This document shows, one piece after another, positions 27,770-54,293 of a stretch of DNA of 64,000 nt. The translations under genes and the position numbers were made by a program. Source of the stretch: Nakamurella sp. PAMC28650 (GTDB lineage Bacteria > Actinomycetota > Actinomycetes > Mycobacteriales > Nakamurellaceae); contig NZ_CP060298.1 of the NCBI RefSeq assembly GCF_014303395.1, positions 1,550,001 to 1,614,000 of the forward strand. Reading direction: 5' to 3'. Numbering within the stretch: position 1 is the stretch's first letter; each line of letters starts with the position of its first letter. Below the pieces are notes generated by a model that was given only the letters and a program-made list of their open reading frames with translations, made no database searches and had not been told where the DNA came from.

Positions 27770-27805
27770 GTTCCGTAATACGCAACGCTCCGCGCTGTAT
27801 GCAAC
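27770..27805 (+). promoter_or_regulatory. Double palindrome operator site 1 (dmgO promoter)
   Basis: Reads GTTCC-N7-GCAAC-N2-TCCGC-N7-GCAAC on the plus strand, the same 36-bp layout as five other sites in the window. It ends 11 bp before the dmgO start codon, so a bound protein would block transcription or translation start. The proposed binder is one of the two IclR proteins. Confidence 0.7.
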
Positions 27806-27922
27806 AACCCTGTGTCGAATCACAGTGATCGAGCGCGGAGCGGCTGTCAAGGGTTTGCTGATCACGGTCCGGGGAGCGGAACCGACAGGATGGGTCGGTT
27901 CTGCTCCCCGGAACGGTGATCC

Positions 27923-29056
27923 CTACTTGCCGAGCCAGGCGTTGACCTTGGCGGGGTTCGCGTCGATCCACTTCTTCGCGGCAGCCTCGGGGGTCATCTT
28001 GTCCGCGGTGATGTACTTCGCGACCAGGTTCTGGTCGTCGTTGGTCCAGTGGAAGTTCTTGATCAGGGCGGCGGCCGGCGAACCGGAGTTCGCCAACTTC
28101 GCCGACATGATCTTGTTCAGGTTGTAGTTCGGGTAGTCACAGGCGATCTTCTGCAGATCGGTGTCGCAGCCGGGGGTGTACTTGGGCAGGTTGATCTTGG
28201 TCAGCGGCACCTCGGACAGGAACCACTGCGGTGAGTAGAAGTAGCCGATCACCGGCGTGTTGTTCTGCTGGCCGGTGCGGAAGGCCTGGATCAGCGCCGC
28301 CTCGGAGCCGGCGTAGACGACCTTGTAGTTCAACTTCAGGTTCGTCACCAATGCCGCGTCGTTGGTGACGAATGACGGGTCACCGTCGAGAAGCTGGCCC
28401 TGGCCGCCGGACTCGGAGGTGGCGAACTTGCTCGCATACTTGTTCAGGTTCTGCCAGTTGGTGATGTCCGGGAATTCCTTGAGGGTGGCCGGCGTGACGT
28501 ACCAGCCGATCTGCCCGAGGTTGCCCGTCAGGCCGGCGTCGACGGCCACCTTCTGCTGGGTGATGTACTTCAGCGTCAGGTCGTCGTGGCCCCAGTTCTC
28601 CATGATCACGTCGATCTGGCCGGTCGGGAAGCCCTGCCACGCCAGCTGTTCGGCCAGTGCCTTCTGGTTCACCCGGCATTTCAGGTCGTTCTTCAGGATG
28701 TAGGTGACGACGGCGGCGTCGGCCGTGTACCCCACCCAGTCGTTCATCGCCATGTTGATAGGCGCGCTGCAGGTGCCGCTCACCGGGAGCATCTTGGCGG
28801 TGCTGGCAGCGCCGGAGCCCGCTGCGGTGGAACTGCCCGCGGACGCTGCCGAAGTCGCGCTGGAGGCCGGCGCGGCGGACGCGGCGGACGCGGCGGACGC
28901 GGAGGACGCGGCCGGCGTACTGGCGGCTGCGGAGGGCGAGGAGGAGGCGCCGCCGGCCTGGTTCACCGTCGCGGCGCAGGCGCTGGAGATGAGCAGGCCG
29001 AGCGCGGTCAGCCCGATGCCGAGCCTCTTGACGGTCGTTGACTGGGTGTGGCGCAT
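27923..29056 (-). CDS. Glycine betaine-type ABC transporter substrate-binding lipoprotein
   Basis: 377 residues. A signal peptide ends in the lipobox LLISSAC with Cys27, then a 65-residue Ala/Ser linker, part of it coded by a repeated GCGGACGCG motif. The binding domain is of the OpuAC/ProX type (PINMAMNDWVGYTADAAVVTYIL, QGFPTGQIDVIMENWGH, GYFYSPQWFLSEVPL), which folds around quaternary ammonium ligands with aromatic residues; several Trp are present at the usual places. Together with the permease and ATPase upstream it imports betaine or choline, the feed for the catabolic genes around it. Confidence 0.92.
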   Translation of the reverse strand: MRHTQSTTVKRLGIGLTALGLLISSACAATVNQAGGASSSPSAAASTPAASSASAASAASAAPASSATSAASAGSSTAAGSGAASTAKMLPVSGTCSAPINMAMNDWVGYTADAAVVTYILKNDLKCRVNQKALAEQLAWQGFPTGQIDVIMENWGHDDLTLKYITQQKVAVDAGLTGNLGQIGWYVTPATLKEFPDITNWQNLNKYASKFATSESGGQGQLLDGDPSFVTNDAALVTNLKLNYKVVYAGSEAALIQAFRTGQQNNTPVIGYFYSPQWFLSEVPLTKINLPKYTPGCDTDLQKIACDYPNYNLNKIMSAKLANSGSPAAALIKNFHWTNDDQNLVAKYITADKMTPEAAAKKWIDANPAKVNAWLGK

Positions 29057-29119
29057 GTGGTGCTCCTAGATCTTCGGGGGTGGGATGGGGTGGGCGGTCA
29101 GGTCTGCTCGTGCGGCTGC

Positions 29120-31252
29120 TCAGGCGGTGGCCGGTTCGATGACCTTGGCGGTGGAGATCCGTCGGGTCGGTGCGGCGCCGGACTCGGTGGCCTTCCGGGC
29201 CCGCTGGCCGGAGCGCTGGGCGGCGGCCTGGGTCAGCCGGTCGACCATGATGCCCAGGACGACGAGCGCGAGGCCGGCGGCCAGGCCCTTGCCGAAGTAC
29301 GGCGGATTCTGCAGGCCGCTGATCACCAGGTAGCCGAGCCCGCCGCCGCCGACGGCCGCGCCGATCACCACCATCGATAGCGTGTAGATCACCGCCTGGT
29401 TGGAGGCCAGCGCGATCGATTTGATCGACATCGGGATCTGCACCCTGGTGATCATCTGCCATTTGGTCGAGCCGGCGGACAGGGCGGATTCAACGGTGTT
29501 CTCCGGCACCTGGCGGATACCGTCGGCGACGATCTTGATGGCGGCCGGTGCGGCGTAGATGACGCCGGCGAAGATGGCGGTCACCCGGCCGGGTCCGAAG
29601 AGGCCGAGGAACGGCACCAGGTAGACGAAGGCCGGCATGGTCTGGGCCGCATCGAGAACCGGCCGGATCAAGCGGTCGGCGCCCTTGGAACGACCCATCC
29701 AGACGCCGATCAGCACTCCGAGGGCGATCGCCGCGATGCTGGCCAGGATGGTCGAGGCCAGGGTGAACATGGCGTCGGACCAGACGCCCAGCACGACCAG
29801 CGCGGCGACGCCGACCACCATGATGACGGCGATGCGCAGGCCGCCGACTGCGTAGCCGATCACGGCGAAGGCCACACCGACGACGAACCAAGGGGTCTGG
29901 ACCAGCAGCGACTGCAGCGGGTTCAGCAGACCGTAGGCGATGGCGTTCTTGAAGTTCAGGGTGATCAGCGACAGGTGCGTCTGCACCCAGGTGGAGACGG
30001 TGTTGACGCCGGCAGTGATGGACCGGCCCCAGTCCGGCCAGTTCTGCGGCGGCTGGGCCGCCCACAGGTAGGTGCGCGAGAGGTAGACCGCGACCGCCGT
30101 GATCACCAGTCCGGCCGCGATCACCGCCCGTCGCGTCGTCTTCTTCCCGGTCCCCTTGCGCACGGCGATCTCGGCACGGACGCTGGCCGCGGTGGAGACA
30201 CGGTCGAACACGATGGCCATCAACACGATCGACAGGCCGGCGTTGAACGCGGTGCCGACATCCAGGCTCTGCAGTGCCTGCTGGACGTCGGAGCCGAGGC
30301 CGGGGGCGGCGATGTAGGCCGCGATCACCACCATCGACAGGGCCGCCATGAATGTCTGGTTGACGCCGATCACCGTGGTGCGCTTGGACATCGGGAGCAG
30401 CACCTGCCGAAGGCGTTGGGCCCCGGTAACACCCATGGAATCGACTGCCTCCCTGGTGGTCAGGGGAACCTGGCGGATGCCGTGCGCGGTGATCCTGATG
30501 ATCGGCGGCGCCGCGAAGATGAAGACCGCGGCCGTCACGGAGGCGGTTCCGAGCCCGAAGATCAGGACCAGTGGGGCGAGATAGGCGAAGGACGGCATGA
30601 TCTGCATGAAATCCAGGACCGGCGTGATGATCTTGTTCACCCGGTCGCTGGTGCCCGCCCAGATTCCCAGCGGAATGCCGATCACGAAGGCGAACAGGAC
30701 GGCGGCGATCACCTGGGCGAAGCTGGCCATCGCGTCGGTCCACACACCCTGGAGGACGAACAGCAGGAACACCGCTGCGGTCAGGGCGGCAACCTTGACA
30801 TTGCCGACGGCGTAGGCGATCCAGGTCACCAGGACGGTGGTGCCCAGCCATCCGATGTAGGGGATGCCGAGCCCGTTCGGGGTCTGGTAGAACGTCGCGG
30901 AGATGAAGTCGCTGACGTGCTGCAGCACGATCTGGATGTAGTTGACGAAGTAGAGGAAGACCGGGCTGCTGTTCCGGTTCTGGGCGACCCAGTCCGGCCA
31001 GGTGTTCAGGTTCGTGTGGATGGTGGTGAGTTCCTGTGGATCCAGGGCCAGCGTCCACCGGTCGGCCAGCGCGAAACGGAAGATGACCCACACCACCAGG
31101 ATCCCGATGACGGTGACGGCCGCCGTCCCGGACGGGAACCATCGCCCGCCAGGGGGTTCCGGCGGTCCGACCCGGTCGGCGTTCGCACCGAGCTGGGCCT
31201 CCGACTTCTCCAGATCGGCTTCCGATGCCGGGTCCGTGGTGGTGGTGGTCAT
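29120..31252 (-). CDS. Glycine betaine-type ABC permease with two fused channel domains
   Basis: 710 residues, about twice the normal ProW/OpuAB length. Each half carries a set of membrane helices and a cytoplasmic EAA loop: first AVDSMGVTGAQRLRQVLLPMS, then ESALSAGSTKWQMITRVQIPM. Repeated helix signatures (VLIFGLGTASVTAAVFIF and FLGLFGPGRVTAIFAGVIYA; SMVVIAAYI and SMVVIGAAV) show internal duplication. One polypeptide would therefore form the whole membrane channel that two identical permeases form in ordinary systems. The start codon shares a base with the stop of the ATPase gene. Confidence 0.92.
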   Translation of the reverse strand: MTTTTTDPASEADLEKSEAQLGANADRVGPPEPPGGRWFPSGTAAVTVIGILVVWVIFRFALADRWTLALDPQELTTIHTNLNTWPDWVAQNRNSSPVFLYFVNYIQIVLQHVSDFISATFYQTPNGLGIPYIGWLGTTVLVTWIAYAVGNVKVAALTAAVFLLFVLQGVWTDAMASFAQVIAAVLFAFVIGIPLGIWAGTSDRVNKIITPVLDFMQIMPSFAYLAPLVLIFGLGTASVTAAVFIFAAPPIIRITAHGIRQVPLTTREAVDSMGVTGAQRLRQVLLPMSKRTTVIGVNQTFMAALSMVVIAAYIAAPGLGSDVQQALQSLDVGTAFNAGLSIVLMAIVFDRVSTAASVRAEIAVRKGTGKKTTRRAVIAAGLVITAVAVYLSRTYLWAAQPPQNWPDWGRSITAGVNTVSTWVQTHLSLITLNFKNAIAYGLLNPLQSLLVQTPWFVVGVAFAVIGYAVGGLRIAVIMVVGVAALVVLGVWSDAMFTLASTILASIAAIALGVLIGVWMGRSKGADRLIRPVLDAAQTMPAFVYLVPFLGLFGPGRVTAIFAGVIYAAPAAIKIVADGIRQVPENTVESALSAGSTKWQMITRVQIPMSIKSIALASNQAVIYTLSMVVIGAAVGGGGLGYLVISGLQNPPYFGKGLAAGLALVVLGIMVDRLTQAAAQRSGQRARKATESGAAPTRRISTAKVIEPATA

Positions 31253-32328
31253 CAGGCCACGGCCTGCCCGGCGACGTTGGTCGACACCTTGCCGGACCGG
31301 GATCCGATCAGGGCGAGGATGTCGTCACGGGTGACCATCCCGATCGTTTCGTTGCCGTCGACGACGCGCACGGGGGTCGCCGAGCCGACGACGGTCGGAA
31401 TCGCGTCACGGATCACCGTGCCGGCCGGCAGGGCGGCGGACGTCGCGTCGAGTCCCAGCGCGGCCCGGGCGATCCACTTCAGCGTCAGCACATCGGCTTT
31501 CGGGACCTCGGACACGAAATCGGCGACGTAGTCGTCGGCCGGGGCGCCGACCAGTTCGTCACCGGTGCCGATCTGCACGAGTTCGCCGTGCCGCATGATC
31601 AGGATCCGGTCACCGAGTTTCAGGGCCTCGGAGAGATCATGGGTGATGAAGATCATCGTCTTGCCCATGTCGCGGTGCAGCCGGATGACCTCGGCCTGCA
31701 TGTCACGCCGGATCAGCGGATCCAGCGCCGAGAACGGCTCGTCGAACAGCAGGACGTCCGGGTCGCCGGCCAGGGCGCGGGCCAGCCCGACGCGTTGCTG
31801 CATGCCGCCCGAAAGTTGATCAGGGAAGCGCTTCTCGTATCCGTGCAGTCCGACGAGTTCGATCACCTCGTGGGCCCGCTCGTACCGTTCGACCTTGCCC
31901 ATGCCGCGGACCTGCAGTCCGTACGCGACGTTGTCCAGGACGCTCCGGTGCGGCAGCAGACCGAAGTGCTGGAACACCATCGAGATCCGCCTGCGACGGA
32001 TGTCGCGCAGCGCGGAGCCCGACGATTTCATGATGTCCTGGCCCGACAGCAGCACCTGCCCGGCGGTCGGTTCGATCAGCCGGGTGAGACATCTGACCAG
32101 GGTGGACTTCCCGGAGCCGGAGAGGCCCATCACGACGAAGACCTCGCCGCGGGCGACGTCGAAGTTCATGTTCCGGACGGCCGGCACGCACCCGGTCCGC
32201 TCGAGGATCTCCGGCCCGGTGAGCCCGGCCATCGCGGGGTCGGTCGGGATCTTGTCCGCCTTGTGCCCGAAAACCTTCCACAGATTGCGGACCGAGAAGT
32301 CGGGAGTGTCGAGGATCGGTGCAGTCAT
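31252..32328 (-). CDS. proV: Glycine betaine/proline-type ABC ATPase with C-terminal CBS domain
   Basis: 358 residues from the ATG at 32328, which has AGGAG six bases upstream; the longer open frame overlaps the next gene's leader. Walker A is GLSGSGKST (68-76), signature LSGGMQQRV, Walker [13 protein letters not shown], and the N-terminal [10 protein letters not shown] is the typical OpuAA/ProV lead-in. The last 70 residues ([25 protein letters not shown]) are a CBS-type module, which in OpuA senses ionic strength. Only one CBS repeat seems to be present. It powers the importer with the fused permease and lipoprotein. Confidence 0.93.
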
Positions 32329-32425
32329 CACATCTCCTGGAGTAGGGAGAACGAAGAGCGGGCTGTGCGCTTTCGGGCTGTGCTCGTGCGGGTGCGTCAG
32401 GTCGATGAGGGTGAGGGGTGAGAAG

Positions 32426-33949
32426 TCAGCGGGGGAACCAGTACTGCGGGGCGGGGGAGGTGTTCTGCCAGATGTGCTTGATCTCGCGATATTCGGACAG
32501 GCCGGTGGGCCCGAGTTCGCGTCCGTTGCCGGACTGACCGAAACCGCCCCATTCCGCCTGTGGCACGTAGGGGTGGTAGTCGTTGATCCAGACCGTGCCG
32601 TGGCGCAGTGCCCCAGCGACCCGCTGCGCGCGGGAGGCGTCCGAGGTCCAGACCGCACCGGCCAGGCCGTAGTCGGTGTCGTTGGCGATCTCGATCGCCT
32701 CCGACTCGGAGGTGAAGGTCTCGACCGTCATCACCGGCCCGAACGACTCCTCCCGGATCACCGTCATGCCACGGGTGCAGCCGTCCAGCACCGTCGGCGG
32801 GTAGTAGAAGCCCTTCGACAGTTCGCCGTCGGTCGGGATGATGCCGCCGGTGCGCAGGACGGCACCCTCGGCGACCCCGGCCTCGACGTAGGCGTGCACC
32901 TTGGCCCGGTGCGCCGCGGAGATGAGCGGTCCGGTCTGCGCAGCATCGTCGAACGGTCCACCGAGCCTGATCCGGGCTGCCCGGGAGACGATCTCGTCCA
33001 CCACCCGGTCGTGCAGGCCCGCGTCGACGATGAGCCGGGCACCGGCCGAGCAGACCTGGCCGGAGTGCAGGAAGACCGCGGTCAACGCGTAGTCGATGGC
33101 GGCTTCCACGTCTGCGTCTGCGAAGATGATGTTCGGGTTCTTGCCGCCCAGTTCCAGGGTAACCTTCTTCACGGTGGCGGCGCCGGCCACCATGATGGCC
33201 TTGCCGGTGGCCAGGCCGCCGGTGAACGAGACCATGTCGACCCGCGGATCACTGGCCAGGACCGCGCCGACCTCTGGTCCGCTGCCGGTCACCAGGTTCG
33301 CGACACCGGCCGGGACGCCGGCTTCGGTGAGCGTGTCCATCAGCAGGATCGCGGTCGAGGGCGTCAGCTCGCTGGGTTTGAGGACGAAGGTGTTGCCGGC
33401 CAGCAGCGCGGGTGCCACCTTCCAGGACACCTGGAGCAGCGGGTAGTTCCAGGGCGTGATCAGGCTGCAGACACCGACCGGTGCGTAGACGATCCGGCTG
33501 ATCGCGTGCGGATTGCCGGTGTCCACCACCCGTCCGGCATCCGTGCCCGCGATACCGCCGTAGTAGCGGAAGCACGCGACGACGTCATCGATGTCGTACT
33601 CTGCCTCGACGAATCGCTTGCCCGTGTCCAGTGCCTCGGCCCTGGCGTAACGGGCCTTGTCCCGGTGGAGCAGATCGGCGGTGCGCAGCAGCATCTCACC
33701 GCGCTGCTTCTCCGGGAGCGCCGCCCAGGAGCCGGAGTCGAAAGCCGTCCGCGCCGCTGCCACCGCCGCAGTGGCATCTGCGGCGGACCCCTCGACCACC
33801 GACCGTACGGCGGTACCGTCGGCCGGGCAGCTGATCAGTCTTGACCCGCCGCCATCGGACGCGGCCCACCGTCCGGCGAGGTACAGGCCGCGCAGCGTCG
33901 GGTCGGCGCCGGCCACCGGGGTGGCCTGCTCGGCAAGGCTCGTACTCAC
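32426..33949 (-). CDS. betB: Betaine aldehyde dehydrogenase (NAD(P)+ aldehyde dehydrogenase)
   Basis: 507 residues from the GTG at 33949, chosen because GGAGG lies eight bases upstream; a GTG nine bases earlier is an alternative. Catalytic residues are Cys300 in HSGQVCSAG and Glu266 in LELGGK, with the cofactor motif [10 protein letters not shown]. The C-terminal ending and the overall sequence resemble BetB/GbsA enzymes that oxidise betaine aldehyde to glycine betaine. The assignment to betaine aldehyde rests on similarity and on the pathway genes on both sides (BetA at 48660, betaine transporter next door). An IclR-type double operator lies about 95 bp upstream. Confidence 0.88.
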
Positions 33950-34043
33950 TTCCGGCACCTCCGGCTCTGCTCCCGACGGATCCTGGCGGCGCCAATGATC
34001 TCCGATGTACGACTGCCTGTGACGACTGGGTCCGAGACTGGGT

Positions 34044-34079
34044 GTTGCGTATTACGCATCACTGCGCTTCCTGAGCAAC
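34044..34079 (+). promoter_or_regulatory. Double palindrome operator site 2 (betB promoter)
   Basis: Reads GTTGC-N7-GCATC-N2-TGCGC-N7-GCAAC. The first N7 is GTATTAC, the same bases as one spacer in site 1 when read on the opposite strand (GTAATAC). It lies in the gap between the betB start and the end of the IclR gene. Confidence 0.65.
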
Positions 34080-34244
34080 AGCATGGAACGGCAGCGGAGG
34101 GGTGTCAAGGGCGTGAGGCGTATACACCCACCGATACCGGGGAAGATTTACCTGGCCGTGATGCAGGGCGGCCCGGACGGTACATCGGGCGTGACATGAC
34201 GGTGACACGTGACGGTGCCGCGCCGGACGGCCGGTCCCGGTCGA

Positions 34245-35165
34245 TCAGGGGCGGCCGCTGGACGGAGCGAGATAGCCCATGCGTGCGGAGACGGCTGACG
34301 CAGCGCCCCGGACGGCTCCGACCACCTGCGGGATCCGGGCGGCGTCGAGTCGGAAGCTGGGGCCCGAGATCGACAGGGAGGCGATCACCGATCCGTCGAC
34401 CCCACGGACGGGTGCCGCAACGGCCGTCAGGCCGATCTCGAGCTCGTCGACCGCCACCGAGTAGCCGTCCCGGCGGACGCTCTCCAGCGAGGCAGCCAGG
34501 GCAACGCGGTCGGTGATCGTGTGGGGTGTGATCGCCCGCAACCGGCCGGAGGAGGTGCTGGCCGCGCCCAGGATCGCCTCGGCCTCACCGGACGAGGCGT
34601 GGGCCAACAGGACACGGCCGTTCGCGGTGGCGTGCACCGGGTTCCGCCTACCGATCCAGTTGTGGATCTGCAGTGCGGAGGTGCCGGCCACCTGGTCGAG
34701 GTAGAGCGTCTCGGTGCCCGAGAGGATGACGATGTTCACCGTCTCGCCGACCTCCGCGGCCAGCGGGCCGGTGACCGGTCGGCTCTCCCGGACGATGTCC
34801 AGCCGCGACCGGGTGGCGCCCGCGAGCCGCAGCACGCCGACGCCCAGCCGATACCGGCCCCGGTCGGGTAGCTGCTCGGCCAGACCGTGGGATTCCAGGG
34901 TGGCCAGGAGTCGGGAAGCCGTCGACTTGTGCACTCCGAGCAGCCCGGCGATCTCGGTGACACCGAGTTCGCCGTCGGCGGCGAGCAGTTTCAGGATGGT
35001 GAGCGCGCGATCCACCGACTGCACCGACCCGCCGGTGCCGTCGGGGCGGTCGGTTCGGTCGGGGCGGTCGGTGATCTCGGCGGGGGCCGAGCGAATCCCG
35101 CGACGGCCGAGATCGGCTGCGGTGACGTGCGGAGCCGTCGGGTGCGGCCGCAGGAGGTCGGGCAT
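34245..35165 (-). CDS. IclR-family transcriptional regulator 1
   Basis: 306 residues from the ATG at 35165; a GTG six codons upstream is possible and neither has a strong ribosome binding site. The N-terminal 45 residues are Asp/Arg/Pro-rich and probably disordered. The winged helix follows (SVDRALTILKLLAADGELGVTEIAGLLGVHKSTASRLLATLESHGL), then the IclR effector domain (GETVNIVILSGTETLYLDQV, RNPVHATANGRVLLA). The recognition helix GVHKSTASRLL is identical to that of the regulator at 50411. It is divergent from purU, with a double operator between them, and next to betB. Confidence 0.93.
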   Translation of the reverse strand: MPDLLRPHPTAPHVTAADLGRRGIRSAPAEITDRPDRTDRPDGTGGSVQSVDRALTILKLLAADGELGVTEIAGLLGVHKSTASRLLATLESHGLAEQLPDRGRYRLGVGVLRLAGATRSRLDIVRESRPVTGPLAAEVGETVNIVILSGTETLYLDQVAGTSALQIHNWIGRRNPVHATANGRVLLAHASSGEAEAILGAASTSSGRLRAITPHTITDRVALAASLESVRRDGYSVAVDELEIGLTAVAAPVRGVDGSVIASLSISGPSFRLDAARIPQVVGAVRGAASAVSARMGYLAPSSGRP

Positions 35166-35266
35166 AGCTCGGAGCGTAACCACATCTGGGCGCGTCCGAC
35201 CCGTGGGCGGATCGAGTCCGTTACCGGTCCCTCTTGACCGGACCGCTGCTACCCAACATGCTGTTC

Positions 35267-35302
35267 GTTGCACATGGAGCAGTGTGTTGCGTTCTGTGCA
35301 AC
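35267..35302 (+). promoter_or_regulatory. Double palindrome operator site 3 (purU / iclR 1 intergenic)
   Basis: Reads GTTGC-N7-GCAGT-N2-GTTGC-N7-GCAAC; the second palindrome is perfect. It ends 27 bp before the purU start and could also control the divergent regulator, giving autoregulation. Confidence 0.72.
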
Positions 35303-35329
35303 CAACCAAGTTCGAGCTGTGGAGGTTCG

Positions 35330-36202
35330 GTGTCCCCTCGTCCCCATGCCGGTCAGGAGTTCATCCTGACGTTGTCCTGCCAGGACGGGCCCGGCCTGGT
35401 CTACGCCGTGACCGGTTACCTGGTGGAGTTCGGAGCGAACATCCTGGCCAGTCAGCAGTTCGACGATCGGCTCACCGGTCGCTTCTTCATGCGGGTGCAC
35501 TTCGTGTTCATCGGCGAGGCACCGGAGCTGGCCGATCTCCGGTCCGGGTTCGACCAGGTGTCGGCCCGTCATGCGATGGAGTTCGAACTGGTCGATGCCG
35601 CGACGCCGACCAGGACGATGATCATGGTCTCGAGATTCGGCCATTGCCTGAATGATCTGCTCTACCGCTACCGGATGGGAACGCTCAACATCGATATCCC
35701 GGTCATCATTTCCAACCACGACGATTTTGCGGCCCTCGCCGCGTCGTACGAGATTCCCTACGTGCACCTACCCGTAACGCCGGATACCAAGGCAGCAGCG
35801 GAGTCCCGGATGTTGGAATTGATCGCAGAGCATCAGATCGACCTGGTGGTGCTGGCGCGCTACATGCAGGTTCTCTCCGAATCCACCAGTCGGGCGTTGT
35901 CCGGAAGAGCGATCAACATCCACCATTCCTTCCTCCCCAGTTTCAAGGGTGCCAGGCCCTATCACCAGGCGCACGATCGCGGCGTGAAACTGATCGGTGC
36001 GACGGCGCACTACATCAACGACGACCTCGACGAGGGCCCGATCATCGAGCAGGACGTGGCCAGGGTTGACCACAACCTGGGTCCGGACGACCTGGTCGCC
36101 GCCGGCCGCGACGTGGAGACGCAGGTGTTGTCCCGGGCGGTGAAATGGCACTGCGAGCGGCGCGTGATGCCCAACGGCTCCCGGACGGTCGTGTTCCGCT
36201 GA
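35330..36202 (+). CDS. purU: Formyltetrahydrofolate deformylase
   Basis: 290 residues from the GTG at 35330, four bases after GGAGG. An N-terminal ACT domain (FILTLSCQDGPGLVYAVTGYLVEFGANILASQQF) is followed by a formyltransferase-fold hydrolase. Catalytic residues are seen as Asn196 and His198 (INIHHSFLPSFKGA) and Asp234 (DDLDEGPII). It hydrolyses 10-formyl-THF to formate and THF. In betaine degradation, dimethylglycine and sarcosine oxidation load THF with one-carbon units, so PurU recycles free THF. Its shared operator with the other betaine genes supports that role. Confidence 0.96.
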   Translation: MSPRPHAGQEFILTLSCQDGPGLVYAVTGYLVEFGANILASQQFDDRLTGRFFMRVHFVFIGEAPELADLRSGFDQVSARHAMEFELVDAATPTRTMIMVSRFGHCLNDLLYRYRMGTLNIDIPVIISNHDDFAALAASYEIPYVHLPVTPDTKAAAESRMLELIAEHQIDLVVLARYMQVLSESTSRALSGRAINIHHSFLPSFKGARPYHQAHDRGVKLIGATAHYINDDLDEGPIIEQDVARVDHNLGPDDLVAAGRDVETQVLSRAVKWHCERRVMPNGSRTVVFR

Positions 36203-36269: not shown

Positions 36270-36273
36270 GTTC

Positions 36274-45627: not shown

Positions 45628-45649
45628 TGTCCTGCTGGCCCCACCACCG

Positions 45650-45717: not shown

Positions 45718-45759
45718 TTCGTCAGCGCGAGCGAACCCGTCCCCCACCGGAGGTTGAAG

Positions 45760-46317
45760 ATGGCTCTGCTGCCCACACGCGACGAGAAGGTCCCGGGCCG
45801 GGCCGGGTTCGCCGAGATCAAGATCGAGGACCTGCCGAGCCTGGAGATCCTGGTGATCGACGAGATCGCCAGTTGGATCTTCTCCCCGGAGAACCCGGGG
45901 AAGGACTACAACGGAGAACACGGCGGAGCCATCGTGACGGTCGTGCTCAATGCAGTGCAGGGTGCGTCCAAGTTCCGGCCGGAGTCGGCTCCGGAGCCCA
46001 CCGAAGCCGTCACCGACATGCGTGAACGGGTCTTCGAGGGTGTCCAGCAGATCGCGTCATCGGCCCAGGCGCTCAGTACGTACGTCATCACCCTGATGCC
46101 GGCCGTGATCAGCGAACTGGAGCGGCGTGCGGGCGATCCGGCCAGCCAGCTGTACTGGCTCTACTGCTACGCCCTGCTGGTACTGGCCGGCGGCCGCAGC
46201 GGTGATCTCGACCAGAATCTGATGATCGGCATCATGGGTTCTTTCGACGGCTGGAACGAGAAGATGACGGAGGGTTTCACCCTCCCCTGGCGTGTGGAAG
46301 CTCCCCGCCAGCCCTGA
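45760..46317 (+). CDS. Unknown protein of the propane monooxygenase locus
   Basis: 185 residues from the ATG at 45760, six bases after GGAGG. I do not recognise the family. No signal peptide is seen. The protein is mostly helical, with an acidic N-terminal half (IKIEDLPSLEILVIDEIASWIF) and a hydrophobic helix pair near residues 105-150 (STYVITLMPAVISELERR, QLYWLYCYALLVLAGGRSGD) that could be buried or membrane-associated. Its place after prmABCD-groEL on the same strand suggests an assembly or stability factor for the monooxygenase, but hairpins and a repeat lie between, so separate expression is possible. Confidence 0.75.
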   Translation: MALLPTRDEKVPGRAGFAEIKIEDLPSLEILVIDEIASWIFSPENPGKDYNGEHGGAIVTVVLNAVQGASKFRPESAPEPTEAVTDMRERVFEGVQQIASSAQALSTYVITLMPAVISELERRAGDPASQLYWLYCYALLVLAGGRSGDLDQNLMIGIMGSFDGWNEKMTEGFTLPWRVEAPRQP

Positions 46318-46370
46318 CCGGGGAGAGGCGGAGCGACGACCAGAGCTCGCAGACGACTGGTCCGTGTTCG

Positions 46371-47750
46371 TCAAATACCCTTTGCCATCTTGACTCTCGG
46401 GGCCAGCACCGCGCCGGTCAGTGCCGCGGCGGCGGCGATGCCGAACCCGGCCAGGTACGGGGCGGTGTGCGAGCGACCCAGGAGGGCGGCGAAGACCGCA
46501 CCAGACGCCGCCAGTGTGATCGACTGCAGCAGAGCGTCATTGACCTGCAGCGCCGAAGAATTGCGACCCTCCTCGTCCGGTGCGGACAATTCCAGCGTCA
46601 GGACCGACATCGTGGGGTAGGCGATCCCGATGCCAAGGCCCGCGACCACCCACGAGATGTAGACCGTGAAGAGCGGAACGGCAGTCCAGACCGTTGCGGA
46701 GGCCAGCACGATCCCGACCGCCAGTAGGCCGAGTCCGGTGCCGAGCATGGCCGCGCGTCGTTCGGCGGAGCTGAATTTTCCTTGCAGCGCCGACCCTGCC
46801 GACCAGCCGAGAGCTCCGACGGTCAACACGATCCCGGCCTCTGCAGGGGACAGTCCCCGTTCGCGGGACAGCAGCAGCGGCAGGAAGACCTCGGCGCCGG
46901 TGAAGGCTGCCGAAGCCAGGCCCCGCAACAGGATCACCGTCGGAAGGCCGCGTGCGGCACGGTAGGTGCCGCGGGGGAGGAGTCTGGGTACCGACACGAT
47001 CAGCAGCCCCAGCGACACCGCCGTCATCACGATGGCCAGCGAGCTCCCACTCTGCCCGGCGACGGAGAGCAGGCAGGCCGCCGCGCCTGCGATGGTGGCG
47101 AACAGTGTGCGGCTCAAACCTTGTCGCGCGCCGGCCGGCGACTCAGGCTTCTCCGCCCGTTCGGCCAGCAGTCTGCGGCACGGCCCCCAGCCCGCGATCG
47201 CGGCCGCAAGGGCGACGAACGGGACCGTCAGGAAGACCCAACGCCATCCGACGTGGACGACCAGAAAGCCCGCTATCGCCGGTCCGACCAGAGCCGGCAG
47301 CACCCACGCTGCCGCGAACGCGGAGAAGATCTTGGGTCTGCTGGCCTCCGGATAGGTCCGTGCGACGACGACGTAGATGGCCACCGAGGTCAGCCCTGTG
47401 CCCAGTCCCTGCAGAGCCCGGCCGCCGATCAGCATCGGCATGGAGAGTGCGGTGCCGCTGATCAGCAGGCCCGCGACGAACAACAGCCAACCCGTCGCCA
47501 ACGCCCCGACCGGCCCGCGTCGATCACTCCAACCACCGGCGGAGACCATTCCGATGATGGCGGCCGCGGCGGGGATCCCGAACGCGAGCGCGTATTGCTG
47601 CAGTCCGCCGAGAGCCGCAGCCACCGTGGGCATCGCCGTCGAGACTGCGATCGCCTCGAAGGCCTGGACGGCCACCATCGTCACGGCGGCTGTCGTCACC
47701 GCGCGCAGCCCGGGCGAGAAGACACCCGCCCTGGTCGTCGATGTCGTCAT
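46371..47750 (-). CDS. MFS transporter (drug/solute exporter type)
   Basis: 459 residues with 12-14 predicted membrane helices. The first helices (VTTAAVTMVAVQAFEAIAVSTAMPTVAAAL) and motif A (GGWSDRRGPVGALATGWLL) fit the DHA2-like exporter branch, as do ALQGLGTGLTSVAIYVVVARTYP and the motif C region AWVLPALVGPAIAGFLV. Such proteins use the proton gradient to export drugs or metabolites. It is convergent with the propane cluster and has no partner, so its substrate is unknown. Confidence 0.88.
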   Translation of the reverse strand: MTTSTTRAGVFSPGLRAVTTAAVTMVAVQAFEAIAVSTAMPTVAAALGGLQQYALAFGIPAAAAIIGMVSAGGWSDRRGPVGALATGWLLFVAGLLISGTALSMPMLIGGRALQGLGTGLTSVAIYVVVARTYPEASRPKIFSAFAAAWVLPALVGPAIAGFLVVHVGWRWVFLTVPFVALAAAIAGWGPCRRLLAERAEKPESPAGARQGLSRTLFATIAGAAACLLSVAGQSGSSLAIVMTAVSLGLLIVSVPRLLPRGTYRAARGLPTVILLRGLASAAFTGAEVFLPLLLSRERGLSPAEAGIVLTVGALGWSAGSALQGKFSSAERRAAMLGTGLGLLAVGIVLASATVWTAVPLFTVYISWVVAGLGIGIAYPTMSVLTLELSAPDEEGRNSSALQVNDALLQSITLAASGAVFAALLGRSHTAPYLAGFGIAAAAALTGAVLAPRVKMAKGI

Positions 47751-47778
47751 CCCTGCACGCTAATAGGTGAAGTCAGCT

Positions 47779-48522
47779 TCAAGTCAAAACCAGGTCGGCG
47801 CGGAAGCACTGGGTCACGTACGGGAGTTCGATGGTCTCCGCGCCGGCCAGGGCCGGATGGGTGGAGACCAGTGCTGCGACCTGGGCCAGCAGCGTCGCAC
47901 GTTGCGACGCCGATGCGGTGATGACGTAGCTGCGCGACGCGACCATGTCCATCAACTGCGGCGCGGTCGTGTGATGGACCCACGCCAATTCGCACGACTC
48001 GACCGGGCCGAAATGCGGGCCCAGATCCTCCACCGACATCGAGTCGCTCGTGCCGCCGGCCGGTCGGAGCACGCGGCCCAATTCGGCCACCCAGTCGACC
48101 CGTTCGTCCCGCAGGTTCCACAGCAGACCCAGCCGGCCACCCGGACGCAGGACGCGAGCGACCTCGGGCAGGGCGATGTCCGGATCCACCCAGTGCCAGG
48201 CCTGCGCGGCGAGAACGCAGTCGCAACTGTCGTCCGGCAGCGGAAGGTGCTCCCCGGTCCCGGCGAACACCGGCACCTGCGGAAGCGCACCGGCCAATTT
48301 CTCGCGCATGCCCTCCGACGGGTCGACGGCCGTCACATCCAAGCCTCTGGAGCTGAGCAGGCGGGTCAGCTTGCCCGTCCCGGCCCCGAGATCAACCACG
48401 TGAAGTGCGTTCTCGGGCAGGAGCCAGTCCAGGGCCTGTTCCGGATAGGACGGGCGGCCGCGCTCGTAGGCCTCCGCCGCCCGCCCGAAGGACGCCGCGT
48501 TCTCCCTCTGCTTCTCGTCCAC
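47779..48522 (-). CDS. Class I SAM-dependent methyltransferase
   Basis: 247 residues from the GTG at 48522. The SAM-binding motif I is VVDLGAGTGKLTRLLSSRG (about 42-61), motif II VTAVDPSEGM, and a later AWHWVDPDIALPEVARVLRPGGRLGLLWN is the UbiE/Methyltransf_11 pattern. The family methylates small molecules; the substrate cannot be deduced. It sits between the MFS gene (same strand, 28 bp downstream) and betA, so it could be co-transcribed with the exporter. Confidence 0.88.
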   Translation of the reverse strand: MDEKQRENAASFGRAAEAYERGRPSYPEQALDWLLPENALHVVDLGAGTGKLTRLLSSRGLDVTAVDPSEGMREKLAGALPQVPVFAGTGEHLPLPDDSCDCVLAAQAWHWVDPDIALPEVARVLRPGGRLGLLWNLRDERVDWVAELGRVLRPAGGTSDSMSVEDLGPHFGPVESCELAWVHHTTAPQLMDMVASRSYVITASASQRATLLAQVAALVSTHPALAGAETIELPYVTQCFRADLVLT

Positions 48523-48553
48523 GTGCCCAGTGTGCCGGACTCGCTGCGGTGCG

Positions 48554-48614
48554 ATCGACCGGAATGAGATCCGCAGATTCCGGGTGCCAGAGTGCGGATC
48601 CTGTTCCGGTCGAT
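48554..48614 (-). terminator. Two-tier hairpin after betA
   Basis: Outer arms ATCGACCGGAA (48554-48564) and TTCCGGTCGAT (48604-48614) and inner arms GATCCGCA (48568-48575) and TGCGGATC (48593-48600) pair perfectly around symmetric 3-nt internal loops. It begins 46 bp after the betA stop and likely ends the betA transcript. Confidence 0.75.
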
Positions 48615-48659
48615 GAGGCTGGGCGGTCGATGAGATGGGCACGCGGCCGGCCGAGGGGC

Positions 48660-50336
48660 TTACCGGGTGTGCCGGTAGAACGGCGCATCAGAGGGGGCCA
48701 GCGGGGTGCGGCCCAGGATCAGGTCGGCGGCCTTCTCGGCGAGCATCATCACCGGCGCGTAGATGTTGCCGTTCGTCACGTAGGGCATGACGGACGCATC
48801 CACCACGCGCAGTCCCTCTGTGCCGTGCACCCGCATGCTGGTCGGATCGACGACGGCGAACGGGTCGGATGCCGGTCCCATCTTCGCGGTGCACGACGGG
48901 TGCAGCGCGGTCTCGGCGTCGGCCGCCACCCAATCGAGAATCTCCTGATCGGTGGAAACCGAAGGGCCCGGGGAGGTCTCACCACCGTTGAACGGGGCCA
49001 TCGCCGGTTGGTTCAGGATGTCCCTGGCCACCCTGATCGATTCGACCCACTCCCGCTTGTCCTGGTCGGTGGACAGATAGTTGAACCTCAGCGCCGGATG
49101 CTGTCGAGGGTCCTTCGAGACGATCTTGAGGGTGCCGCGTGCATCGGAGTACATCGGGCCGACGTGGACCTGGTAGCCGTGGCCGGTGCGGCGGACCTCC
49201 TCGGACACCGAGCCGTCGTACCGCACGGCGATCGGCAGGAAGTGGAACATCAGGTTCGGGTAGTCGACCTCGTCGTTGGACCGGACGAAGCCGCCGCCCT
49301 CGAAATGATTGGTGGCTGCCGGCCCCTTCCGGGCCAGGATCCACTCCAGACCGATGAACGGCTGTCGCCATTTCTGGAGATAGGGCTGCATCGTGACCGG
49401 TTCGGTGCAGGCGTACTGGATGTAGACCTCGAGGTGGTCCTGCAGATTGGCGCCCACCCCGGGTAGGTCCACGACCGATTTGACACCCAACTGGCGCAAT
49501 TCTTCTGCATTGCCGATCCCCGAGAGCTGCAGCAGCTGGGGCGAATTGATCGCGCCGCCGCAGAGGATGACCTCGCCGGCGTGTGCCGTGTGGTTGCGGC
49601 CGTTGCGCGAGTAGGTGACTCCCGTCGCGCGAGTGCCCGAGAAGTTGATTCCGGTGGCCAGCGCCCTGGTCAGGACGGTGAGATTCTGGCGACGCATGCT
49701 GGGCCGCAGATACGCACGGGAGGCCGAGAGCCGGCGGCCCTTGTGGACGTTGCGGTCGAAGGGCGCGAATCCCTCCTGACGGAAACCGTTGACGTCATCG
49801 GTCAACGGGTAGCCCGCCTGTACCGCTGCATCGAAGAAGGCACCGAACAGGGGATTCGTCGCGGGTCCACGCTCCAGGACCAGCGGCCCGCCACGGCCGC
49901 GCTGGACGTCGTCACGGTCGGCCGCCAGACAGTTCTCCATCCGGCGGAAGTAGGGCAGGCAGTGTGCCCAGTCCCAGTCGGACATGCCGGCGTCGGCGCC
50001 CCAGCGCTCGTAGTCGAGGGGGTTGCCGCGCTGGAAGATCATCCCGTTGATCGAGCTGGATCCGCCCAGCACCTTGCCCCGGGCGTGGGCGATCCGGCGT
50101 CCCTTCATGTGGGGTTCGGGCTCCGACTCGTACCGCCAGTCGTAGAAGCGGCTTCCGCTGGGGAACGTCAGGGCCGCGGGCATCTGGATGAACAGATCCC
50201 AGGGATAGTCGCTCCGGCCGGCCTCCAGCACCAGGACGGTTGACTTCCCGTCGGCCGAGAGGCGGTCTCCCAGAACGGATCCCGCGCTCCCGCCGCCGAC
50301 GATGACGTAGTCGAAGGTATTCCTGGGGTTGGTCAC
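48660..50336 (-). CDS. betA: Choline dehydrogenase (GMC oxidoreductase)
   Basis: 558 residues, normal for BetA. The FAD motif is [19 protein letters not shown] (10-28), followed by [21 protein letters not shown] and the second GMC signature [15 protein letters not shown]. The active-site His is in [11 protein letters not shown], and the C-terminal [30 protein letters not shown] is typical. It oxidises choline to betaine aldehyde at the membrane. The GTG start has GAGGAG eleven bases upstream. It is divergent from an IclR gene with a double operator in the gap, and the next enzyme, BetB, is 15 kb away. Confidence 0.93.
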
Positions 50337-50383
50337 GGTCGGCTGGACTCCTCTTGATCAAGATGGCGGGACATGGTGACGTT

Positions 50384-50419
50384 GATGCGCCCAGCGCCTA
50401 GGGTTGCGCTATGAGCAAC
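50384..50419 (+). promoter_or_regulatory. Double palindrome operator site 6 (betA / iclR 2 intergenic)
   Basis: Reads GATGC-N7-GCCTA-N2-GTTGC-N7-GCAAC. The perfect second palindrome covers the start codon of the IclR gene at 50411 and part of its -10 hexamer, which implies autorepression. The first palindrome is weak. Confidence 0.68.
50399..50404 (+). promoter_or_regulatory. -10 hexamer for a leaderless iclR 2 transcript (TAGGGT)
   Basis: TAGGGT lies six bases before the ATG at 50411, and there is no Shine-Dalgarno. The hexamer and start codon overlap operator site 6. Confidence 0.5.
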
Positions 50420-51232
50420 GTCGAGTCGGGGGTAGAGGACCGGGGTGCGCGTGGTGCGCCCGCCGTGATCGGACCCCCGGCCAGCGCGGTCCAGTCGGTG
50501 GATCGTGCCATCACGGCCCTTGAGTTCCTGGCCCGCCGCGGGGAGGCGGGCGTTTCCGAGGTCGCGGCCGCGATCGGGGTGCACAAGTCCACGGCCTCGC
50601 GACTCCTGGGCGCCCTGCAGTCGCGAGGACTCATCGAGGTCGCCGGCGATCGGGGCCGCTACCGCCTCGGCTACGGGATCCTCCGCCTGGCCGGTGCGAT
50701 GGGTGGTCGGTTGGACGTCACCAGTCAGGGTCGGGAAATCTGCGAGGAACTCGCCGAGCAGCTGGGCGAAACGGTGAACATCGCTGTGCTGCAGGGTGAT
50801 CAGGTGATCAACGTCTACCAGGCCCATGGCGGGGGGGCAATCTCCGTCAACAACTGGGTCGGGCGACCCACCCCGTTGCACGCCACCTCGTCGGGCAAGG
50901 TACTGCTGGCCTACCTGTCCAGATCGGTGCAGGACAAGCTCCTGGAATCCGGCCTCGTCAGGTTCACCGCACTCACCGTCACCGACTCGCGAGCGCTCCG
51001 CCGCCAGTTGGCGCAGGTGCACGTCGACGGGTACGCGATCACCGCCGAAGAGTACGAAACGGGTTTGAATGCTGTGGCTGCGCCGGTCTTCGGCACTCAC
51101 GGCGCGGCCATTGCGGCGGTATCCCTGTCCGGACCTGCCTACCGTCTTCCCGTCGCGGAGCTGGCCACCACAGCGGGGACCGTCATGGCCGCCACCGCAC
51201 GGATCAGCGAGCGGATGGGACATCTCGGCTGA
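50411..51232 (+). CDS. IclR-family transcriptional regulator 2
   Basis: 273 residues. The winged helix (SVDRAITALEFLARRGEAGVSEVAAAIGVHKSTASRLLGAL) and effector domain (LGETVNIAVLQGDQVINVYQ, TPLHATSSGKVLLAYLS) are typical. It is a paralogue of the protein at 34245: the recognition helix GVHKSTASRLL, GRYRLG and GETVNI are shared. It lies between betA and the Rieske betaine demethylase genes and probably controls both, with a quaternary amine as effector. The start is leaderless by the -10 position. Confidence 0.94.
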   Translation: MSNVESGVEDRGARGAPAVIGPPASAVQSVDRAITALEFLARRGEAGVSEVAAAIGVHKSTASRLLGALQSRGLIEVAGDRGRYRLGYGILRLAGAMGGRLDVTSQGREICEELAEQLGETVNIAVLQGDQVINVYQAHGGGAISVNNWVGRPTPLHATSSGKVLLAYLSRSVQDKLLESGLVRFTALTVTDSRALRRQLAQVHVDGYAITAEEYETGLNAVAAPVFGTHGAAIAAVSLSGPAYRLPVAELATTAGTVMAATARISERMGHLG

Positions 51233-51247
51233 GCCTTCCCTCGGCCT

Positions 51248-51328
51248 GCATGGATCAACTTCGCGATTTTGGGACTGATGGGACGAGAGTGAACAACTTC
51301 GTCCATGCCTGCGAAGTTGATCCACGCC
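51248..51328 (-). repeat. Intergenic palindromic repeat, copy B
   Basis: 81 bp bounded by TGGATCAACTTCGC (51251-51264) and its perfect complement GCGAAGTTGATCCA (51311-51324). The core matches copies A and C. It lies between the convergent ends of iclR 2 and gbcA, where it could also serve as a terminator. Confidence 0.8.
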
Positions 51329-51396
51329 ACGGGGGTACACGCCACAGGGATCCACGCCAGAAGGGGGGGCAGGGGGGGCGGTCGGGAGCACCCTCG

Positions 51397-52518
51397 TCAG
51401 ACCTTGATCTTGTCCTGCAGCCAATCGTGGAAGACACCGATGTGGTGCTCGCTGGGCACCAGCACTCCGCCGTCGCGGTAGACGCGGGAGGACATCGCCG
51501 GCTGGCAGCGCTCGCAGGCGTCGAAGTCCTGGCGGTTGACCCGGTCGAACAACTCCACCGACTTGGTGACGTCCCGGCCCTGCTCGACGACACTGGGCAG
51601 ATAGAGCCAGTCACACTCGACAACGGTGCGGTCGGCCGCCATCGGGTACATGCGGTGGAAGATGATGTGGTCGGGCACCATGTTGATGAAGACCTGCGGC
51701 TTGATGGTGATCGCGTAGTACTTGCGGTCCTGATCCGGATCGATACCCGGTAGCATTTCAAGGCCCTCACTGCCATCGATCGTGAAACCCTTGACCTCGT
51801 CGGCGAAGTCGGCGCCGTGATTGACGAAGGCCTGTGCCGCGTAGCCGTCTGCGAACTCCGGAAGCACCTCGGTGAGCTCGGGATGGATCGTCGCGCAGTG
51901 GTAGCACTCCATGAAGTTCTCGATGATGAGTTTCCAGTTCGCCTTGACGTCGTAGACGATCCGGCGGCCGACGGAGAGCGACTCGACCTGGTAGTGATCC
52001 AGGTTCGCGACCTCGCCGAGACGATCGACCACCTCCTGCAGCACGGTGTCCTCGAACGACGGCGGTTCGTCGGCCAGGCTGACCCAGACGTAGCCGAGCC
52101 ACTCGCGCAGGTGCACCTTCTTCAGGCCGTATTCCTGACGATCGATGTCGGGCATCTTCGTGAGATTCGGTGCGGCGATGAGCTTTCCGTCAAGGTCATA
52201 GGTCCAAGCGTGGTACGGGCAGCGGAAGGCGCGACCGACGTCGCCGGACTCCTCCATGCACAGCCTGAGGCCCCGGTGCCGACATATGTTGAAGAAGGCC
52301 CGGATCTCGCCCCTGCGACTGCGCGAGATGATGATCGATTCGGTGCCGACCTGGACGGTCCGGAAGCTACCGGGCGTCGGGACGTCCGACGCACGGATTG
52401 CGCAGAACCACATGTCCTCGAAAATCCTGGCCTGCTCCAGTGCGAAGACCTGTGGGTCCGTGTAGAAGTGGCCGGGCAGCGTGGAGATCAGCGACTCCGG
52501 CAGTTCGGTCGTGGTCAT
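51397..52518 (-). CDS. gbcA: Rieske oxygenase, putative glycine betaine monooxygenase (demethylase)
   Basis: 373 residues from the ATG at 52518 with AAGG upstream. The Rieske 2Fe-2S ligands are Cys79, His81, Cys100 and His103 (CRHRGLRL, CPYHAWTY). The mononuclear iron site is in ENFMECYHCATIHPEL (His207, His212) with a distal Asp/Glu not placed. The sequence fits the GbcA/carnitine-stachydrine group of N-demethylating Rieske oxygenases. It would convert glycine betaine to dimethylglycine and formaldehyde, feeding DmgO. The specific substrate is inferred from neighbouring betA, the IclR operator and the downstream pathway. Confidence 0.85.
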   Translation of the reverse strand: MTTTELPESLISTLPGHFYTDPQVFALEQARIFEDMWFCAIRASDVPTPGSFRTVQVGTESIIISRSRRGEIRAFFNICRHRGLRLCMEESGDVGRAFRCPYHAWTYDLDGKLIAAPNLTKMPDIDRQEYGLKKVHLREWLGYVWVSLADEPPSFEDTVLQEVVDRLGEVANLDHYQVESLSVGRRIVYDVKANWKLIIENFMECYHCATIHPELTEVLPEFADGYAAQAFVNHGADFADEVKGFTIDGSEGLEMLPGIDPDQDRKYYAITIKPQVFINMVPDHIIFHRMYPMAADRTVVECDWLYLPSVVEQGRDVTKSVELFDRVNRQDFDACERCQPAMSSRVYRDGGVLVPSEHHIGVFHDWLQDKIKV

Positions 52519-52588
52519 GGCAATCACCTTCGCGGTCACGGCGGGAACTTCGCGTCGATCGACAGGCATCGACCTGACGGTCACCCTC

Positions 52589-52624
52589 GTTGCGCTAGAC
52601 GCAACAAGTTCTGCTCAGTGCAAC
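52589..52624 (+). promoter_or_regulatory. Double palindrome operator site 4 (gbcA promoter)
   Basis: Reads GTTGC-N7-GCAAC-N2-GTTCT-N7-GCAAC, the best-preserved of the six sites with only two half-site mismatches. It ends 70 bp upstream of the gbcA start, between it and the reductase gene. Confidence 0.75.
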
Positions 52625-52656
52625 CACCTCAGTTTCCTGCCGGAACCGCCGGGCTG

Positions 52657-53856
52657 TCAAGATGTGGTCGCCTTCGCCGGGGCAGAGAGCTGCCTGCGCC
52701 ATCTGGTGAAGAGTTTCGGCTGGTTGAGGCCGAGTACTGCGACCGGCTCTCCGTCGCGCCGGTACACCGCGAGGATGTCGCCGGTCTCGACGCTCCCGGC
52801 TTCGATGGTGATGTCCTCGGTGCCGTCGCGGCGGCCCGTGAACTGGATCTTGACCCCGTACTGGTCGGACCAGAAGTACGGCGGTCGAAGGGATGTCGCC
52901 GGGGGCGATCCGAGCATCCCGGCCACCATCACGGCCGGCCGGTCCCGGGAGTCCGTCCAGTGCTCGATCCGGTGGTGCCCACCCCGGACGTCGTCGAACC
53001 ACGCCGAACAGTCGCCGACCGCGAAGATCCCGGGGAACGAAGTGGCACCGAGGGCGTTGCAGACGACCCCGGCGCTGATATCGATGCCGGAGTCCGCGAG
53101 CCATTCGACGGTCGGTACGGCGCCGATCCCGGCGACCACGACGTCGGCGGCAATCTGCGTCCCGTCGGCGAGCAGCACGCCGGTGACCCTGTCGTCGCCG
53201 AGCAGTCCGGCCACGGCGGTGCCGCACCGCAGCGTGACGCCGTGGTTGGTGTGCAGGCCTGCGACGATCAGGCCCATCTCGGGGCCGAGGGGGCCGGCCA
53301 GCGGCGTCGCCGCGGCTTCGATCACGGTGACGTGCAGGCCCAGGGCGTGTGCGGTGGAAGCGATCTCGGCACCGATGAAGCCGGCCCCGATGACCGCGAG
53401 CCGGGTGCCGGGGACCAACTCGGCGCGCAGGGCGGTGGCGTCGGCCAGGGTGCGGACGGTGTGCACCCCCGGCGGTGCTCCGGGCATCCGGCGGGCCCGC
53501 GATCCGGTGGCGATCACCACCGCATCGGACGTGACGCTGTCCCCGTCGTCCAGGGTCAGGATGCGGGTCGCCGGGTCGAGGGCAACGGCGCGGACGCCCA
53601 GCACCCACTGCGCATCCAGTGCCTCGTCCGGGAGTTCGAGTCCGAGATCGGCCTCGGCCATCGTGCCGGCAAGGAACTCCTTGGACAGGGGCGGGCGGTC
53701 GTAGGGGCGGTCCCGTTCCTCTCCGATGATCGTCAGCCGGCCGGTGAATCCCTGCCGTCGCAGGGCTTTCGCGGTGGCATGGCCGGCCAGGCCGGCTCCG
53801 ACGACGGTCACGCTCCCGAGGGGCAGGGCGTGGTGACCAGAGGTCGGAGCACTCAT
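52657..53856 (-). CDS. FAD-dependent ferredoxin reductase of the Rieske system
   Basis: 399 residues from the ATG at 53856, which overlaps the ferredoxin stop as ATGA. Two dinucleotide motifs are visible, VTVVGAGLAGHATAKALRRQG (FAD) and LAVIGAGFIGAEIASTAHALG (NAD), plus GIFAVGDCSAWFDD. This is the BphA4/PdR-like class that passes NADH electrons to a small ferredoxin. With the Rieske ferredoxin and GbcA it makes a three-component oxygenase. Known GbcAB-type demethylases instead use a one-piece reductase with its own ferredoxin domain. Confidence 0.92.
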   Translation of the reverse strand: MSAPTSGHHALPLGSVTVVGAGLAGHATAKALRRQGFTGRLTIIGEERDRPYDRPPLSKEFLAGTMAEADLGLELPDEALDAQWVLGVRAVALDPATRILTLDDGDSVTSDAVVIATGSRARRMPGAPPGVHTVRTLADATALRAELVPGTRLAVIGAGFIGAEIASTAHALGLHVTVIEAAATPLAGPLGPEMGLIVAGLHTNHGVTLRCGTAVAGLLGDDRVTGVLLADGTQIAADVVVAGIGAVPTVEWLADSGIDISAGVVCNALGATSFPGIFAVGDCSAWFDDVRGGHHRIEHWTDSRDRPAVMVAGMLGSPPATSLRPPYFWSDQYGVKIQFTGRRDGTEDITIEAGSVETGDILAVYRRDGEPVAVLGLNQPKLFTRWRRQLSAPAKATTS

Positions 53857-54209
53857 GGAGCGGTGACTCCCGGGGGCAGGTTCGGGGCCTGTTCGGACAG
53901 CGTCACGTAGATGTCGCCGTCGGTGATGGTGACCTGGTGGGTGCGGACGCCGCGCTTGGCCGGCGGTTCGTCGACCTCGCCGGTCCGCAGATCGAACTTG
54001 GAGGCGTGCAGCGGACACTCGATCTCGCAACCGTCGAGCCACCCGTCCGCGAGCGATGCATCCTGGTGGGTGCAGGTGTCGTCGATGGCGTACACCTCGC
54101 CGTCGTCGGTGTGGAAGACGGAGATCGGCGGCGAGACCTCGTCGACGCGCAGGGCTTCGCCGGCCGGCAGGTCGGCCAGCGGGCAGATCCGCAGCGCTGG
54201 CGCACTCAT
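53853..54209 (-). CDS. Rieske 2Fe-2S ferredoxin
   Basis: 118 residues from the ATG at 54209, chosen because GAGG lies eight bases upstream; a GTG six bases earlier is less well placed. The Rieske ligands are Cys46-T-His48 and Cys65-P-L-His68 (DTCTHQDASL, ECPLHASKFDLRTGEV). It shuttles electrons from the FAD reductase to the oxygenase. It is the first gene of its unit, followed by the reductase by an ATGA overlap, and has its own IclR-type operator upstream. Confidence 0.93.
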   Translation of the reverse strand: MSAPALRICPLADLPAGEALRVDEVSPPISVFHTDDGEVYAIDDTCTHQDASLADGWLDGCEIECPLHASKFDLRTGEVDEPPAKRGVRTHQVTITDGDIYVTLSEQAPNLPPGVTAP

Positions 54210-54257
54210 TTGCACTGCCTCATTGATGCTGCCTCATCTGTGCTGGGTACTGGGTTG

Positions 54258-54293
54258 TTTGCACTGGACACAACTCGATTCGTACTACGCAAC
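54258..54293 (+). promoter_or_regulatory. Double palindrome operator site 5 (ferredoxin promoter)
   Basis: Reads TTTGC-N7-ACAAC-N2-GATTC-N7-GCAAC. The spacing equals the other five sites; three half-sites carry one or two changes. It ends 49 bp before the ferredoxin start. Confidence 0.6.

Follow-up and report, generated by a model that had tools for sequence, protein, structure and literature searches.

Six similar 36-bp sites lie dispersed through a choline and glycine betaine gene region of Nakamurella sp. PAMC28650, and they raise the question of whether these genes form a single regulon and, if so, which protein would control it. Both choline and glycine betaine contain nitrogen and carbon and are common in soil and plant material. 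Family searches within the window (the whole stretch of 64,000 nucleotides analysed here) confirmed a pathway for their breakdown, comprising betA, betB, gbcA, the ferredoxin reductase gene, dmgO, soxB, soxA-soxG, glyA, purU and a choline-type ABC transporter (Table 1). The soxA-soxG fusion encodes one protein of 1254 aa, and many Streptomyces match this query in two separate pieces; the permease gene of the transporter (29120-31252) encodes a 710-aa protein with two permease stretches. A preliminary description had proposed that the six sites, each made of two GTTGC-N7-GCAAC palindromes, define an IclR regulon for this pathway. Our analysis makes it very likely that they are operators of an IclR-family regulon for the catabolism of choline and glycine betaine that is distributed widely across the actinomycetes. 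In this genome they are placed at the promoters of almost all the genes needed for the pathway.

Table 1. Pathway genes, candidate regulators and predicted operators, in window coordinates
Feature	Position	Strand	Remarks
soxA fused to soxG, sarcosine oxidase alpha+gamma	18597..22361	-	family search
soxB, sarcosine oxidase beta subunit	22419..23651	-	family search
glyA, serine hydroxymethyltransferase	23679..25157	-	family search
dmgO, dimethylglycine oxidase-like (DAO + GCV_T domains)	25180..27759	-	family/domain search
Predicted double-palindrome operator, dmgO-glyA-soxB-soxA operon	27770..27805	-	10 bp upstream of dmgO ATG (27759)
Choline/betaine-type ABC transporter: ATPase, double permease, binding protein	27923..32337	-	downstream of betB
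betB, betaine aldehyde dehydrogenase	32426..33958	-	family search
Predicted double-palindrome operator, betB-choline ABC transporter operon	34044..34079	-	-35 TTGACA, 18-bp spacer, ATGCTG abut
iclR1, IclR-family regulator, recognition helix HKSTASRLL	34245..35165	-	start codon inferred
Predicted double-palindrome operator between purU (+) and iclR1 (-)	35267..35302	.	TTGACC-N18-ATGCTG, purU side
purU, formyltetrahydrofolate deformylase	35330..36202	+	family search
betA, choline dehydrogenase	48660..50336	-	upstream region common with iclR2
Degenerate left palindrome of 50384 site	50384..50400	+	absent in five congeners
Predicted single 17-bp palindrome GTTGCGCTATGAGCAAC over iclR2 start codon (50411)	50403..50419	+	kept in six genus genomes
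iclR2, IclR-family regulator, recognition helix HKSTASRLL	50411..51232	+	49% identical to IclR1
gbcA, glycine betaine monooxygenase oxygenase subunit	51397..52518	-	family search
Predicted double-palindrome operator of gbcA	52589..52624	-	TTGACA-N18-GAAACT immediately upstream
Ferredoxin reductase for GbcA	52657 to about 53856	-	family search
Rieske ferredoxin for GbcA (fdx)	53853-54209	-	identified by reading its translation
Predicted double-palindrome operator, Rieske ferredoxin/ferredoxin reductase pair	54258..54293	-	TTGACA-N18-AAGCTG abuts

Predicted operators in the window and the genome

The sequence bore out the reported positions of all six sites (27770, 34044, 35267, 50384, 52589 and 54258), their 17+2+17 layout with palindromes repeated 19 bp apart, and a final GCAAC that is perfect in each. 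The sites are imperfect copies, with two to four mismatches per 20 specified bases. A strict pattern search of the window permitting three mismatches passed only those at 35267 and 52589; because it missed four of the six it was rejected, and matrix models were used. A matrix built from any five sites recovered the sixth at 20.0-35.2 bits in the window, where the best non-site position scored at most 12.0 bits; in 40 Mb of simulated sequence nothing scored as high as any of the left-out sites. The window scan also agreed with the preliminary description in placing no site before the propane monooxygenase or peptide-type ABC transporter genes.

Genome-wide scans relied on sequence-only covariance models. 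Applied to the 5.63-Mb genome, the model of the six sites, a whole-genome check that the preliminary description had proposed, returned only these six and no matches at random positions. Since this search scores only pre-filtered candidates, a weak site can be missed, and one was: a broader model added a seventh (genome position 61263-61298, locus L177:4264), which falls outside the window, about 134 bp ahead of the operon for an SBP_bac_6 ABC transporter. This site is found upstream of the orthologue in genomes G001 (score 26.5) and G013 (24.0), is weak in G006, G007 and G011, and is absent in G004, a congener without gbcA. The permeases of the operon weakly resemble 2-aminoethylphosphonate types, and the predicted site suggests that the transporter is possibly a further importer of the regulon. 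The proposal that every site precedes a gene of one pathway stood as regards a single choline and betaine catabolism regulon, but the window does not contain all of it, at least one further member lying outside.

Conservation across the actinomycetes

Comparison of orthologous promoters in related actinomycetes, also proposed at the outset, found the motif before the same genes: sites of the same layout precede fdx, gbcA, dmgO, betB, purU and iclR genes. The strongest of the window sites, at 35267, is conserved in G001 and G011 and weak in G006, and that at 54258 is conserved in G001, G006, G011 and G013 and weaker in G007. The site at 27770 is kept upstream of dmgO in G001 and G011, that at 34044 is conserved in G001 and weaker in G011, and that at 52589 is conserved in G001. 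Among 17 members of the genus, the model found sites in five of the seven with gbcA and in none of the ten without it (Fisher p 0.003). Genomes of other families of the order (G040, G052 and G060) also carry sites, and each shows just one IclR2-like gene close to gbcA in the stretches that were read.

At a threshold of 18 bits, the window-trained matrix gave 293 matches in 80 gbcA loci from named actinomycetes, a sample with many Streptomyces and hence non-independent, and 30 column-permuted matrices gave on average 0.4 and at most 4 matches on the same loci. The matches fall before fdx, gbcA, betA, betB, dmgO, purU, iclR and further genes; for 260 of them a query gene starts within 500 bp, and the remaining 33 all fall outside the query genes. 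Several of these 33 precede genes for BCCT-family betaine transporters, S-(hydroxymethyl)mycothiol dehydrogenase (TIGR03451, above cut-off; a mycothiol-dependent formaldehyde dehydrogenase), L-serine ammonia-lyase (TIGR00720, above cut-off) and an FdhF-type oxidoreductase. Formaldehyde is released by GbcA, and glycine and serine are the end products of the pathway, so that these genes are coherent additions to the regulon, and they were absent from the training set.

Two further observations concern one-carbon genes. A strong site (37 bits) at L121:2703-2738 lies before an FdhF/YdeP-family oxidoreductase, which possibly disposes of the formate made by PurU. In some genomes of family f41, which lacks gbcA but retains a choline cluster, a site lies where a gene with an MTHFR domain begins; at L181:8367-9215, L183:7784, L179:8204 and L186:6263 the predicted operator is at the start codon of a protein of about 285 aa, the MTHFR domain having been shown for the L181 copy.

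Candidate regulators

IclR1 and IclR2 each have an N-terminal HTH_IclR and a C-terminal IclR_C domain above the gathering score, which places both in the IclR family, and they fall in one clade (98/98) that excludes the five other IclR proteins of this genome. The recognition helix HKST(A/V)(S/F)R is found in nearly all neighbours. The motif was detected in 27 of 297 genomes of the class, 26 of which have a regulator of the IclR1/IclR2 clade (Fisher p 1.5e-21); one of the 244 genomes without the regulator has the motif, and all 31 class genomes with gbcA encode a regulator of the clade. Under strict filters, 27 of the 53 regulator-bearing genomes had no motif match, so that the link is not one to one there. 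Seven motif-bearing genomes without gbcA were considered as counter-examples and rejected as such, since six have a clade regulator; in four of these six, the sites lie within choline gene clusters. Motif genomes without gbcA have a single clade gene, whose identity to IclR1 is mostly 58-61%; the exception is G169, which lacks such a gene and whose match was taken as chance. This pattern of co-occurrence points, with high probability, to the IclR clade encoded next to the pathway as the regulator.

Both IclR1 and IclR2 probably bind the motif in this genome, given that their recognition helices are identical and that each sub-clade occurs with the motif in the absence of the other. We attach a lower, though appreciable, likelihood to binding by only one of them, the other regulating something else. 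The two proteins share only 49% identity, and in G007 and G013 an fdx site has IclR2 close by, with no IclR1 seen in the stretches read, as would be expected of a single binder. Shared operators are favored by the common recognition helix, by the motif before pathway genes in four genomes whose only clade match is of the IclR1 type (G349, G341, G231 and G292), and by its presence before pathway genes in loci of Streptomyces, Geodermatophilaceae and Mycolicibacterium that have the IclR2 side only.

Operator geometry and mode of regulation

Palindrome pairs were counted using a score that treats both palindromes alike, and spacings from 12 to 54 bp were compared: 213 pairs were exactly 19 bp apart, 7 were at 20 bp, and no other spacing had more than 3. 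Smaller peaks at 55/56, 74/75 and 81-84 bp come from neighbouring double sites. In Streptomyces loci such as L063, L080, L088 and L131, the iclR-betA and purU-betB intergenic regions contain two closely placed double operators. Spacings of 55/56 and 74/75 bp (about seven helical turns) might allow looping or higher-order binding. Agreement with GTTGC is 4.5 of 5 bases for the outer half-sites and 3.5 of 5 for the inner ones. In the mechanism we propose, an IclR tetramer, as a dimer of dimers, would bind the two palindromes on the same face of the DNA, 19 bp being about two helical turns; most of the specificity would reside in the outer half-sites, with the inner ones held cooperatively.

Read towards the regulated gene, 145 of 191 operator occurrences have a TTGAC box that starts 26-34 bp ahead of the operator, as against 13 expected. 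In the window, the betB, purU, fdx and gbcA promoters have this box followed by an 18-bp spacer (Table 1), and their operators begin at the -10 or at most six bases after it; the dmgO operator begins 15 bases after the -10. The box is slightly further from the operator at the window gbcA and dmgO genes (36 and 45 bp). No TTGAC box at the fixed distance was found in the betA, iclR1 and iclR2 orientations, so the control of these three genes is less clear.

An operator on or just after the -10/+1 region, with the -35 box about 30 bp before it, has the geometry of repression, and we infer from this arrangement that the regulator is probably a repressor. The bound protein would block RNA polymerase at a TTGACA-type promoter, and a pathway compound would release it from the operator. 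Activation from the same sites appears unlikely. The IclR family has members of both signs, PcaU and PobR being activators, and some sites are further upstream of the start codon (gbcA and betA); against this, the position of the -35 box, about 30 bp ahead of the operator in the direction of the gene, means that the operator covers or follows the -10/+1 region, and at iclR2 the palindrome shares bases with the gene's own -10 and extends over the start codon.

The site at iclR2 requires an amendment to the initial count of six double palindromes, of which five are indeed double: the left palindrome at 50384 is poor (9.7 bits) and non-conserved, so this site is effectively single. All six genus genomes retain the right palindrome, which spans the iclR2 start codon, and the other five lack the left one. 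In all six, a TAnnnT -10 located six bases before the iclR2 start codon overlaps the first two bases of the palindrome; in the window this -10 is TAGGGT, overlapping the palindrome at 50403. We read 50403 as a putative single-palindrome autoregulatory site. Because the -10 overlaps the palindrome at the start codon, the iclR2 transcript is probably leaderless, and iclR2 would be autorepressed via one palindrome spanning its leaderless start.

Comparison with known systems

Among IclR-family proteins named in NCBIfam, BhcR (NF045644) was the best-scoring family for both IclR1 and IclR2; membership of this family was rejected, since the scores of 177 and 183 bits are about half of the curated cut-off of 350 bits. 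In Gram-negative bacteria, betaine and choline genes are controlled by GbdR and BetI, which belong to the AraC and TetR families. The predicted system in Nakamurella would serve the same pathway, but through an IclR-family regulator and another type of operator.

A survey of 94 IclR groups (Suvorova and Gelfand 2021; PMC8222616) describes in its main text a GTT-11-AAC subgroup with the consensus GTTYCRYW3RYGRAAC, and tandem sites 18-22 nt apart. The sites reported here resemble the operators of this group 1 in their 17-bp palindrome, in the same outer bases and in their position over or near the gene start, but differ from the consensus as given there at position 4, which is G (C at position 14) versus Y/R. 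Their centres are 19 nt apart, within the published tandem range, except at iclR2 itself. Apart from position 4, palindrome and spacing both place the sites with the group 1 operators, and the suggestion that paired palindromes suit an IclR protein is in agreement with the tandem sites of the survey (PMC8222616). The same paper describes TtgV of Pseudomonas putida, an IclR-family protein, bound to DNA (PDB 2XRO); TtgV regulates efflux pumps, unlike the system proposed here, and its dimer-of-dimers binding is the model borrowed for the putative IclR1/IclR2 tetramer.

A different transcription factor, encoded elsewhere, might in principle bind the motif, leaving the IclR genes as bystanders. The motif was assigned to its protein by co-occurrence only, and a few site-bearing loci (e.g., L102, L138 and L139) show no IclR gene within the DNA examined; the presence of the clade in 26 of the 27 motif genomes, together with the fit to the group 1 consensus and tandem spacing (PMC8222616), makes such a factor very improbable. 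Chance, or a repeated element instead of an operator, for which nothing speaks beyond the clustering of the sites in one region, is contradicted by the simulation, permuted-matrix, spacing and cross-genus tests and can be dismissed almost entirely.

Significance of the predicted regulon

The main text of PMC8222616 names no choline, betaine or sarcosine regulon. The open literature that was searched yielded no description of an IclR regulon for betaine, choline, dimethylglycine, sarcosine or gbcA, and no regulator of choline or glycine betaine breakdown in actinomycetes. The tandem-palindrome geometry is of a known IclR kind, and the choline and betaine regulon appears to be undescribed. IclR1 and IclR2, which have the same recognition helix, would be old paralogues that probably use common operators. 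More tentatively, and as a possibility that we would not yet favor, two ancient paralogues may share operators and integrate two pathway signals, with the operator of one repressor overlapping its own leaderless start codon, in a regulon that, across the Actinomycetes, extends to the disposal of formaldehyde, formate and serine. The motif provides an annotation handle for the pathway, its transporters and its one-carbon branches in Streptomyces, Mycolicibacterium, relatives of Arthrobacter and others, and it assigns a likely function to a clade of IclR proteins.
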